This document shows positions 5,929 through 30,800 of a stretch of 64,000 nt of DNA, one piece after another. Within the stretch, counting starts at the first letter, position 1. Every line of letters starts with the position of its first letter. The notes below the pieces were generated by a model. That model was not told the DNA's origin. It made no database searches and saw only the letters and a program-made list of their open reading frames with translations. Source of the stretch: Pirellula staleyi DSM 6068 (GTDB lineage: Bacteria > Planctomycetota > Planctomycetia > Pirellulales > Pirellulaceae); assembly GCA_945875845.1 (NCBI GenBank), contig CAMCMB010000013.1, forward strand, positions 1 through 64,000. The letters are read 5' to 3'. The position numbers and the translations under genes were made by a program.

Positions 5929-6034
5929 GTTGATTTAATGGTACGACGGACTTCCAAGTCCGTCGAATTCCCCATTGACGGACCTGGAAGTCCGTCATAC
6001 CGCCCTTACCCAATAACGACTTCACTAAATCAAC
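5929..6034 (+). repeat. MITE-like element, copy 1
   Basis: Bounded by GTTGATTTA on the left and TAAATCAAC on the right. Inside is a 9-bp-stem hairpin GACGGACTTCCAAGTCCGTC (5945-5964), then GAATTCCCC and a second imperfect copy of the hairpin. Related elements lie at 17629-17751, 25971-26088 and 56768-56840. It has no coding capacity. Confidence 0.85.
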
Positions 6035-23219: not shown

Positions 23220-23277
23220 TCGAATCAGAGATCAGAGATGGGGGAATTGTCGGTAGCGAGATGGGCTAGCTTGCAAA

Positions 23278-23317
23278 CCGTACGCTCCAGTCGGACAAGC
23301 CGACTGGGGGCGTGCGG
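23278..23317 (+). repeat. REP-like extended hairpin, left
   Basis: CCGTACGC and CAGTCGG pair with CCGACTG and GCGTGCGG across the loop ACAAG: an inner 7-bp stem and an outer 8-bp stem with one G-T pair, separated by small bulges. Its counterpart in the right repeat is 24514-24553. Confidence 0.85.
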
Positions 23318-23330
23318 TCGAACCGGCGAC

Positions 23331-23430
23331 GTCGGACGAGCAGGCAGAGTCGGATGAGCAGGCGACGTCGGACGAGCAGGCAGAGTCGGACGAGCAGGCT
23401 GAGTCGGACGAGCAGGCAGAGTCGGACGAG
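23331..23430. repeat. 18-bp minisatellite, about 5.5 units (left)
   Basis: Units of GTCGGACGAGCAGGCAGA with a few changes (GGATGAG, GGCGAC, GGCTGA). Reading frames through it encode six-residue repeats and are not genes. The right copy (24567-24702) has about 7.5 units. Confidence 0.92.
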
Positions 23431-23454
23431 GTTGGTAGACAGGAGTTTTGGCCC

Positions 23455-23543
23455 CCGATGGGCTTGCCCCATCGGAGCCAACGGTTCGCAGCTAGAACTC
23501 CCTGAAACCTATAACCAAAAGACCCCCGCGACCTTGCGTCGCG
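23455..23543 (+). repeat. Two REP-like hairpins with loop CTTGC (left)
   Basis: CCGATGGG-CTTGC-CCCATCGG (23455-23475) and CGCGAC-CTTGC-GTCGCG (23527-23543). The loop CTTGC is nearly the reverse complement of the ACAAG loop of the first hairpin, so the hairpins on either side of the minisatellite are inverted relative to each other. Confidence 0.8.
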
Positions 23544-23635
23544 CGGTGAATCAGGTTCCCCCAGCTCCCAAACCAACTCAACTCCGCGATACAATTCAAC
23601 AAACCACCCACCATCCTCTATCGCGGACGTTCAAG

Positions 23636-24433
23636 ATGTCCAACACGGATTGCTATTCGCCTGAAACAACAACTCCCGCCTACGCGTTGCGATGGTCCTG
23701 GACCGGTTGGCCATCACAAGGTTTCATGCCCACGTTGTCCAACGCTGACTGGCAAGTTCTATCGCAAGCGTGGGAGAAAGATGGAATCCGGCTGTTGGAA
23801 CGCAAGTGCGAACAAGATCAATGGCAGGTTACCGTCAGTTCAAAACCTCATGCGTTTCCTTCCTTTATCGTTGCCCGAATCAAGGGACGCATCGACCACT
23901 TTTTTCGTTCCCGTGGAGTCCCCTTCAAGTTCTCTCGAAAGGTATCGCTTCGCGCTATTGGCGATAACACCATTGCAGACATTCAGGCCTATATCGGAAA
24001 TCAAGTTGAGGCAGCAGGATTCGTCGATGTTCGTTTCGCCGAAGCTCTCAAGCAATTTACGAGTGTTTGTACGGACGGTAACGAATGGAACTTGCCAATC
24101 GAAGTGGCCAGCGGTCGGTATTGGTATCACTTGCATTTGGTCCTCGTTGTCGATAGACGCCATCGCATTCGCGACCTGCAGTTTCTGGCAGCTCTATTTG
24201 AAGCTTGCCAAGCAATCGCACTGGATCGAAGCGATCGGCTCGCGAGCATCTCTGTTATGCCTGATCACCTTCACTTAAGCCTTGGCGGTGGCAACGTTGA
24301 GGATTCGCCGGAAGCGATTGCGATCTTCTACATGAATGAGACTTGCCGAAGATTGAAGGCTTTGGGATTGTGGCGTCCGAGCTATTACATTGGTACTACG
24401 GGAATCTATAACATGAACGCAGTCAGGAGTTAG
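23636..24433 (+). CDS. REP-associated (RAYT/IS200-like) HUH transposase with fused half-domains
   Basis: Single-strand DNA transposase of the Y1 HUH superfamily, presumed to act on the flanking REP hairpins. The ATG at 23636 gives 265 aa; an open frame reaches back to 23312, but only through the repeat. C-terminal half (about 160-265): YHLHLVLVVDRRHRI strand, then HUH motif MPDHLHL (H211, H213) and the helix ending YYIGTTGIYNMNAVR, but the protein stops where the tyrosine helix is expected. N-terminal half (about 14-130): KGRIDHFFR, then FSRKVSLRAIGD and IQAYIGNQ with Y119, matching the Y1 tyrosine helix, while its HUH position is QWQVTVS. So one half seems to supply Tyr and the other HUH. 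Both flanks carry REP hairpins, as expected for RAYTs. Confidence 0.75.
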   Translation: MSNTDCYSPETTTPAYALRWSWTGWPSQGFMPTLSNADWQVLSQAWEKDGIRLLERKCEQDQWQVTVSSKPHAFPSFIVARIKGRIDHFFRSRGVPFKFSRKVSLRAIGDNTIADIQAYIGNQVEAAGFVDVRFAEALKQFTSVCTDGNEWNLPIEVASGRYWYHLHLVLVVDRRHRIRDLQFLAALFEACQAIALDRSDRLASISVMPDHLHLSLGGGNVEDSPEAIAIFYMNETCRRLKALGLWRPSYYIGTTGIYNMNAVRS

Positions 24434-24454: not shown

Positions 24455-24475
24455 CAGACGGGACAAGCCCGTCTG
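24455..24475 (+). repeat. REP-like hairpin just after the transposase
   Basis: CAGACGGG-ACAAG-CCCGTCTG, an 8-bp stem with the same ACAAG loop as the extended hairpins. It has no counterpart at the corresponding place left of the transposase. Confidence 0.8.
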
Positions 24476-24482
24476 GGAGCCT

Positions 24483-24864
24483 TTGTCGGTAGCGAGATGG
24501 GCTAGCTTGCAAGCCGTACGCTCCAGTCGGACAAGCCGACTGGGGGCGTGCGGCCGAACCGGCGACGTCGGCCGAGCAGGCAGAGTCGGACAAGCCGGCG
24601 ACGTCGGACGAGCAGGCAGAGTCGGACGAGCAGGCAGAGTCGGACGAGCAGGCAGAGTCAGACGAGCAGGCAGAGTCGGACGAGCAGGCAGAGTCGGACG
24701 AGGTTGTAGACAGGAGTTTTGGCCCCCGATGGGCTTGCCCCATCGGAGCCAACGGTTCGCAGCTAGAACTCCCTGAAACCTATAACCAAAAGACCCCCGC
24801 GACCTTGCGTCGCGCGGTGAATCAGGTTCCACCAGCTCCCATACCAACTCAACTCCGCGATACA
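24483..24864 (+). repeat. Long direct repeat flanking the transposase, right copy
   Basis: 382 bp repeating 23247-23593: extended hairpin 24514-24553, minisatellite 24567-24702, CTTGC-loop hairpins 24726-24746 and 24798-24814. It runs directly into a fragment of the transposase gene. Confidence 0.92.
24567..24702. repeat. 18-bp minisatellite, about 7.5 units (right)
   Basis: Same unit as the left block with two extra units. The variant units GTCGGCCGAG and GTCGGACAAGCCGGCGAC lie at its left end. Confidence 0.92.
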
Positions 24865-24865
24865 G

Positions 24866-24957
24866 TTGAGGATTCGCCGGAAACGATTGCGATCTTCTAC
24901 GTGAATGAGACTTGCCGAAGATTGAAGGCTTTGCGATTGTGGCGTCCGAGCTATTAG
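24866..24957 (+). pseudogene. 3' fragment of a second transposase copy
   Basis: 92 bp matching codons at 24297-24388 of the intact transposase with a handful of substitutions (VEDSPE(A/T)IAIFY..NETCRRLKAL), ending in TAG where the intact gene reads on. It begins right where the right repeat ends (GATACAGTTGAGG versus GATACAATTCAAC on the left). This looks like an internally deleted second unit of a tandem duplication. Confidence 0.88.
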
Positions 24958-24969
24958 TTTGTGGACGGT

Positions 24970-29823: not shown

Positions 29824-30233
29824 GACTTACTCCAGTCAGTGAGTGAAACCGCATCGACACCGACAAAACCCGCAATCTGTTCCGAAGCAACGTGGCGTCG
29901 GAGGAAAGTCTGATTGCGAACAGCCTTGACGGAGCGGATTTTATGATTGGAAAAAGCAGCCACAAGTGCGCAGGCGATGACTTAACCAATACTTCAACTT
30001 CCCTTCTTCGAAATGCACGAAGTTGTTGAGCTATGCATTCCATATTTGAAGATCGTGTTAATGTTTCGCAGTCCAGTTGAACCAGCGAAGATGATAGATC
30101 GCTTGTCGTGACGCCACAAAGACGCTCAACTTTGAATTGCTATGCAGCGAAGCTGGCTGTGCGTGCCCCTCGTGATGCTGGTGTCATGGGTCGCTTCAGT
30201 TTCGAACGTCGCCAACCGAGGAAACTTTCCTCA

Positions 30234-30254
30234 CCCATGTGGCAAGCACATGGG
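30234..30254 (+). repeat. REP-like hairpin with loop GCAAG
   Basis: CCCATGTG-GCAAG-CACATGGG, an 8-bp perfect stem. The loop GCAAG is the exact reverse complement of the CTTGC loops at the transposase cassette. Confidence 0.8.
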
Positions 30255-30305
30255 GGCTGGGACCGCTTGGAGATTAGGCCGTTTTTAGCTGACCAAACTT
30301 GCTGA

Positions 30306-30326
30306 CCAACGACACAAGGTCGTTGG
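30306..30326 (+). repeat. REP-like hairpin with loop ACAAG
   Basis: CCAACGAC-ACAAG-GTCGTTGG, an 8-bp perfect stem with exactly the loop of the 23288, 24455 and 24524 hairpins. It is 52 bp from the GCAAG hairpin. Confidence 0.8.
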
Positions 30327-30542
30327 GGCAGGATCGCTCGCTGCGCTTGTGTTGCATCTACGCAGATCGAAAACCCCAAAAAAGCTTTCATGCATGGCGG
30401 TTGAACGCCTTCGGCGTTGTCAGCGAACACTAAAGCGGACCAACCTTGTCAATCGCTATGCCTGTTTTTCTCTTAGGCTTATCCTGTACATCCTGTAAAT
30501 CCATGTTCTAACGTCATTGCAGAAACACCAAGAACGCCGCGT

Positions 30543-30800
30543 CTAGCCACTCTTCATGCTCAGGTTCTTCGACTCCGCCGAGCCGTTCCATCGCTTGCCA
30601 ATATCACAATGGAACATTTTGCCTTCCCGCAACACAGACAGTGTCGGCACTCGGTATAGGTGAGGAACGGAGCTCAATAGCTTGCCTGCGTATGCCACTG
30701 CCGTTGCTACACCTACGACGTTACCGTCGTCAGCGTACGACTCATGGCCAGAGTGATTGGCTAAATCATCTCTGTAGGACTCTTTCATTCCCAACTCCAA
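30543..30800 (-). pseudogene. Relic resembling the short ORF upstream of group II intron reverse transcriptases
   Basis: The 85-codon frame contains MKESYRDDLANHSGHESYADDG and later RVPTLSVLREGK and SAESKNLSM. From memory, this pattern is the short peptide often annotated in front of group II intron/reverse-transcriptase loci in proteobacteria and planctomycetes. It may reflect conserved RNA sequence rather than a protein. No reverse transcriptase is in the window, so it would be a relic or solo leader. Confidence 0.35.

Follow-up and report, generated by a model that had tools for sequence, protein, structure and literature searches.

A REPtron-like Y1 transposase of Pirellula staleyi as a probable single-chain pseudo-dimer with one composite catalytic site

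A 265-aa protein encoded in Pirellula staleyi DSM 6068 carries the HUH motif of a Y1 transposase in its C-terminal half and the tyrosine helix in its N-terminal half, which raises the question of how one chain would assemble a catalytic site from two incomplete domains. The gene lies in a 64,000-nucleotide stretch (contig CAMCMB010000013.1, positions 1 to 64,000), analysed here as a whole and referred to as the window. Comparison of the protein with its relatives and with single-domain enzymes leads us to consider it probable, at roughly three chances in four, that it is a REPtron-like single-chain pseudo-dimer of an IS200-type Y1 (HUH) transposase with one composite catalytic site.

Two Y1 domains with complementary remnants of a site

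An earlier note on this DNA had placed the 265-aa open reading frame between the ATG at 23636 and the stop codon at 24431-24433, and both place and frame proved right, as did its reading of MPDHLHL with H211/H213 and of Y119 within IQAYIGNQ. The note had further described an N half without an HUH pair and a C half ending before the tyrosine helix; both descriptions held, and both turned out to be traits of the family in a 64-row alignment. Thus, the loss of HUH from the N half and the early end of the C half are family features rather than accidents of the window copy. The features of the gene are as follows.

23636..24433, forward strand: coding sequence of the 265-aa double-Y1 (putative pseudo-dimer) protein, ATG at 23636 and stop at 24431-24433
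23672..24019, forward strand: N half, residues 13-128, a Y1 domain with the tyrosine helix and with HUH lost (Pfam E 3.1e-5; four TnpA fragments align along it)
23819..23827, forward strand: Q62-W63-Q64 in place of the N-half HUH pair, aligned with H-U-H of four TnpA
23990..23992, forward strand: codon of Tyr119, the probable nucleophile (Y in 64/64 rows)
24002..24004, forward strand: codon of Gln123, the candidate third metal ligand, at Tyr+4 as Q131 of IS608 (Q in 64/64 rows)
24107..24430, forward strand: C half, residues 158-265, a Y1 domain with HUH and with the tyrosine helix missing (Pfam E 9.7e-8; family alignment)
24266..24274, forward strand: His211-Leu212-His213, the HUH motif (both His in 64/64 rows)

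The whole protein matched Y1_Tnp (PF01797) in two stretches with 52.5 bits, over the curated cut-off of 23. When each half was compared separately, a check that the earlier note had proposed, both halves matched: the N half alone aligned residues 39-123 with profile positions 29-121 (E 3.1e-5, 24.5 bits, cut-off 23), while profile positions 5-114 aligned with the C half alone (E 9.7e-8). HUH and tyrosine do not share a domain, HUH lying in the C half only and Tyr119/Gln123 in the N half only. The former HUH place is still recognisable in the N half, where D61-Q62-W63-Q64 stands against D-H-V-H of TnpA; four TnpA fragments show D-H-V/I-H or N-H-V-H opposite D-Q-W-Q. TnpA fragments from viral contigs were added to the alignments to deepen the C half. 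An AF2 model of the window protein, computed from a 4-sequence alignment, was too poor to place Tyr119 (mean pLDDT 49.3, pTM 0.43); this low-confidence model gave b-a-b-b-a-b-a for the N half and b-a-b-b for the C half, with later pieces at low confidence.

The complementarity of the halves emerged from single-domain TnpA of the same genome. Against the family HMM, the first part of L037 matched C-half positions 160-216 and its last part N-half positions 65-126; L038 was divided in the same manner (158-226 and 67-141). Not every single-domain TnpA is split, given that L039 matched in one piece (146-235) and L041, L045 and L046 matched 162-214 only. Of the solved structures, 2ec2 aligned with 152-233 and, weakly, with 84-125 (i-Evalue 0.3), 2f4f matched 152-260 only, and the IS608 TnpA structures 2a6m and 2vhg matched the N half only (10-125). 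Passages of PMC5934647 describe IS608 TnpA as a dimer with a site built in trans, one monomer contributing the tyrosine and its partner HUH, and passages of PMC6006769 give the Gln at about Tyr+4 (Q131 of IS608) as the third metal ligand. The pieces of L037 and L038, C-half HUH and N-half tyrosine helix, correspond to the two parts of this trans site, and the family retains exactly one HUH and Tyr/Gln set per chain.

The N half retains its tyrosine helix, with Tyr119 and Gln123, but no longer has HUH; the C half retains HUH, with His211 and His213, and in the main clade of the family has lost the tyrosine helix. The remaining composite site would be of the IS608-like trans kind, with HUH in one domain and Tyr and Gln in the other, now on one polypeptide. 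Sharing could still take place between chains if these paired and Tyr119 of one completed the HUH of another, giving a domain-swapped dimer of pseudo-dimers. IS608 TnpA is itself a dimer that shares between chains, according to passages of PMC5934647; nevertheless, we regard the exchange as unlikely, in that the one complete set left per chain is just what a single pseudo-dimer needs, a finding with which exchange would also be compatible.

Conservation of the site and origin of the fusion

Our search found matches in 45/241 genomes of the host's family. The P. staleyi genome itself holds the window gene, a 45% paralogue (L002, G000:C5), a 29% paralogue (L004, G000:C3) and a fragment behind the window gene; both halves of L004 matched Y1_Tnp over nearly the whole profile, with 53.8 and 56.3 bits. 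For the alignment, rows were picked by the family HMM at E 1e-60 and 8 loci repeating the same places were dropped, leaving 56 main-clade and 8 deeper-clade rows, among which L016, L022 and L096 are partial and L005 and L006 are 95-96% copies of the window protein. Outside Planctomycetota, no relatives were found in plasmids, phages or two viral-contig scans (window protein P0001; A1). The phylum search scored at most 6 candidates per genome, so misses are likely.

Tyr119 and Gln123 of the N half, like His211 and His213 of the C half, were each present in 64/64 rows, as were Ser68 and Gly109. All four catalytic residues recurred in 5/5 full-length members found later (G354, G301, G881, G627 and G369), and even the broken copies that reach the site retained Tyr and Gln in 7/7 N pieces and both His in 8/8 C pieces. 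The HUH place of the N half reads x-U-Q, position 64 being Q in 51/64, R in 7/64 and H in 2/64 rows. Y1_Tnp was the first match of the N half in 10/10 further members, over the cut-off in 4/10 and under it in 6/10. These counts bear on the idea of a domesticated hairpin-binding protein without catalysis, which would suit a chain with one possible site only and a gene that occupies the same place, with the same neighbours on both sides, in the near relative L005; we hold it to be quite improbable, since what never varies is the catalytic set, namely Tyr, the Gln at Tyr+4 and the two His (64/64).

At the end of the C half, 54 of the 55 main-clade rows (out of 56) that reach the place of the lost helix have no Tyr there, the sole exception being L011, where it lies inside a proline-rich tail. 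The corresponding place in the deeper clade has Tyr in 7/8 and Phe in 1/8 rows, with Gln at +4 in none. Just before the lost helix stands Tyr258, found in 53/64 rows, which could be thought to act as the nucleophile of a site in cis, leaving the N half for DNA binding only. Two rows have F at this position and all 8 deep-clade rows have L or A, whereas Tyr119 and Gln123 are invariant, which makes a site in cis very improbable.

Truncated, frameshifted and stop-bearing copies occur in relatives, such as G200:C66 with its in-frame stop, and together with the gene fragment downstream of the window gene they might suggest that the window gene is a chimera or a copy in decay whose anatomy is nothing special. 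This is scarcely credible and is refuted by the family: the same anatomy recurs in dozens of divergent intact genes, and dN/dS was 0.11-0.26 in 12/14 gene pairs, with saturation in 2. The family genes are under purifying selection. Split matches in G010, G216, G006 and G080 were considered as natural two-gene heterodimers and rejected, because their pieces are in different frames, overlap or flank inserted DNA; we take them as broken copies.

Comparison of the two halves as profiles aligned N with C of the deeper clade over 123 collinear columns (E 1.4e-9) and main-clade N with deep-clade C at E 4.2e-5; main-clade C against deep-clade N was weak (E 0.0036), and main-clade N against main-clade C was not significant (E 0.19). 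A tree built from 81 rows over 124 columns, to be read with its few columns and long branches in mind, placed 34 N halves on one branch (96/94) and 34 C halves on a second (99/95), with 13 single-domain TnpA outside both. This separate grouping fits one old fusion before the two clades parted, and the sequences suggest a joining of two Y1 domains, for which a single event is the simplest account. The earlier note had offered a fused dimer with one composite site or a circular permutation; the first is supported at the sequence level by the 64/64 pattern, the Y1 matches of both halves and the division of L037 and L038, and the second is not. The order of tyrosine helix then HUH does, by itself, look permuted, but a permutation of one Y1 domain would leave one strand set, whereas the N half has a first strand of its own along with the KGR helix, other helices and the HUH-strand remnant, the C half has its own end strand LWRPSYYIGTTG, and each half is collinear with the whole domain (Pfam; profile comparison), so we reject it as having a negligible chance.

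Hairpins and repeats flanking the gene

The gene is enclosed by related repeats that contain hairpins and tandem units.

23247..23596, strand not assigned: repeat flanking the gene upstream, containing hairpins and tandem units (96% likeness over 184 nt to 24483-24666 and 98% over 162 nt to 24706-24867)
23287..23307, forward strand: hairpin, 8-bp stem, loop ACAAG
23455..23475, reverse strand: hairpin, 8-bp stem, loop GCAAG on the minus strand
24455..24475, forward strand: hairpin, 8-bp stem, loop ACAAG
24483..24867, strand not assigned: downstream flanking repeat (184-nt and 162-nt likeness to the upstream repeat)
24523..24543, forward strand: hairpin, 8-bp stem, loop ACAAG
24726..24746, reverse strand: hairpin, 8-bp stem, loop GCAAG on the minus strand
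24865..24961, forward strand: second copy of a 3' gene piece, behind the downstream repeat (95% alike to 24296-24392)
30166..30353, strand not assigned: dispersed hairpin doublet of 188 bp, resembling what flanks paralogue L002, whose locus has five matches to it at 83-87%

All five hairpins beside the window gene have an 8-bp stem and a 5-nt loop RCAAG and fold into a lower and an upper stem separated by a 1x2 internal loop. Runs of an 18-bp unit (gtcggacgagcaggcaga and the like) occur in both flanking repeats, at 23331-23420 and 24603-24690, in differing copy numbers. The gene-piece copy at 24865-24961 has a stop after the residue matching Tyr250 and is also present in the near relative G091.

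Within 900 bp of 62 near-full-length genes of the family, we counted 227 hairpins with a loop of 5 nt, where shuffled sequences would give 9.2, and 208 of these 227 have an RCRRG loop. At least one RCRRG hairpin accompanies 34/62 genes within this distance, with 29 flanked on both sides, the REPtron arrangement of a gene between REP-like hairpins; none was found within 900 bp of the other 28/62, some of which have 4-nt loops or other hairpins. The hairpins lie on the reverse strand in 83/111 cases upstream and on the forward strand in 76/97 downstream. An identical 7-bp stem stands on both sides of 26/29 two-sided genes, and the stem differs from gene to gene. The 208 RCRRG hairpins fall in 104.2 kb of flanks. 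Fifteen other Y1-hit loci of the own genome, 47.6 kb in all, contained none; this control is made up of whole loci of one genome, 3/15 of them under the Pfam cut-off. Across 231 hairpins from 40 loci, the bases of the lower stem paired at 0.70-0.73 in one register and at 0.09-0.49 in the other registers tried. The flanks of deep-clade L004 and L078 contain hairpins of another kind, whose loops, for example TTCAC or TRAA, are not of the RCRRG form.

The repeats of the window gene are not dispersed: in its own genome they occur only beside the gene, save for one 44-nt partial match. High-copy REPs for the window gene were not found, with 3 RCRRG hairpins in 400 kb of the own genome versus 1 in 400 kb of G082, a genome of the same genus without a match. 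The L002-like doublet has at least 50 matches on 30 contigs of the own genome (40/61 candidates scored), including the one at 30166-30353. As for the gene, near-identical copies of the kind expected of a mobile IS are absent from the own genome, which has only the 45% and 29% paralogues and the fragment besides it. In L005 the neighbours are shared on both sides, as noted above; L006 has the downstream side in common with the window, its contig hardly reaching upstream, and the region downstream of the window gene is also found in both. Comparison of L007 with the window by blastn matched only the gene and its repeats, and the tblastx matches listed include scattered ones elsewhere in the window, among them some around 33.3-34.9 kb.

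Other repeats were observed in the same stretch. The palindrome GACGGAC-N-GTCCGTC occurs at window positions 5945, 5977, 17645, 26015, 56773 and 56805, often as REPIN-like doublets about 32 bp apart; it was counted 28 times in 400 kb of the own genome versus 0 in 400 kb of G082, and also lies near other Y1-hit loci (L048, L051 and L053). A group II intron D1-D4-6 match (145.7 bits) lies at 30563-30783 on the minus strand, and the region around it is absent from the syntenic loci L005 and L006.

Placement among known systems and proposed action

The protein resembles IS200/IS605 TnpA (IS608, ISDra2; subclass 1.1 of Quentin et al. 2018) in its Y1_Tnp domain, its HUH and its Y---Q motif (Y119-I-G-N-Q123), in hairpins beside the gene and, as far as the sequence pattern indicates, in drawing Tyr and HUH from different domains. 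Unlike the IS200/IS605 homodimer with two sites, it would have two domains and one site in one chain, with a C half that has no tyrosine helix; neither tnpB nor IS ends were noticed. Against the NCBIfam IS200 equivalog the window protein scored 45 bits, under the cut-off of 55, which deep-clade L004 and L090 exceed (108.3 and 102). Similarities with RAYT / TnpA_REP (class 2) lie in the setting of the gene, flanked by REP-like imperfect palindromes that have an irregular zone in the stem and are inverted between the two sides, and in a low copy number. In contrast to the Y---NP of that class, the family has Y---Q, with Gln at +4 in 64/64 rows, and a double domain, whereas E. coli TnpA_REP is described in passages of PMC6006769 as a monomer of one domain; with REP_Tyr_transpos of NCBIfam the window protein scored 17 bits, far below the cut-off of 80.

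Two further groups of TnpA_Y1 share single traits with the family. Many N halves read Y-x-x-x-Q-x-x-H-H, as in subclass 1.2 (Y---Q--HH), but passages of PMC6006769 describe the latter as single-domain proteins of 148 aa without REPs, mostly from Cyanobacteria and Bacteroidetes. Class 3 (Planctomycetes, Acidobacteria and Proteobacteria) is likewise rare, occurs in Planctomycetes and has atypical secondary structures beside the gene, but has a median of 178 aa, a Y----Q motif with one more residue and a foot CnGA according to the same passages, compared with Y---Q and 265 aa here. Given that the plan of the site is IS200-type and the gene setting that of a REPtron, yet a defining feature of each is lacking, we file the protein as a variant of the TnpA_Y1 family.

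We infer both the packing of the halves, which would be like that of the IS608 dimer, and the chemistry and hairpin substrate of the enzyme. One chain would fold as two facing Y1 domains with one site and would bind, on single-stranded DNA, the imperfect hairpins flanking its own gene, each with a short lower stem, a 1x2 internal loop, an 8-bp stem and an RCRRG loop. It would nick beside the hairpin through a 5'-phosphotyrosine on Tyr119, with the metal held by His211, His213 and Gln123, and the cut ends would be rejoined, an action closer to that of a REP-associated enzyme than to that of an IS moving as a unit. E. coli TnpA_REP acts likewise on imperfect palindromes with a bulge, as passages of PMC8266576 describe.

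For the family as seen in Planctomycetota, we favour, with less assurance than the reading of the window protein, a passage from a two-site obligate homodimer to a one-site polypeptide, in which each half lost the part of its site that the other retained. The deep clade, with HUH lost from the N half and the tyrosine helix present in the C half without Gln, may represent the intermediate. Loop and internal loop are kept and the stems change in step on both sides, which argues that the enzyme and its gene-specific hairpins co-evolve as REPtrons.

We found no description of a fused Y1 dimer in open-licence PMC texts; passages of PMC6006769 sort the TnpA_Y1 family into 12 subclasses, name no fused dimer and state that unexpectedly long proteins were discarded. 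If true, our reading would provide a stepwise route from a symmetric dimer to an asymmetric single chain, with an intermediate clade, and would add a REP-like system from planctomycetes, with hairpins that vary between genes. Enzymes of the IS608 type have two shared sites, and with a homodimer it is difficult to tell how many of them a given step requires. A single-chain form with one site, occurring in nature, would make this question of site number directly testable, as each half could be changed alone.
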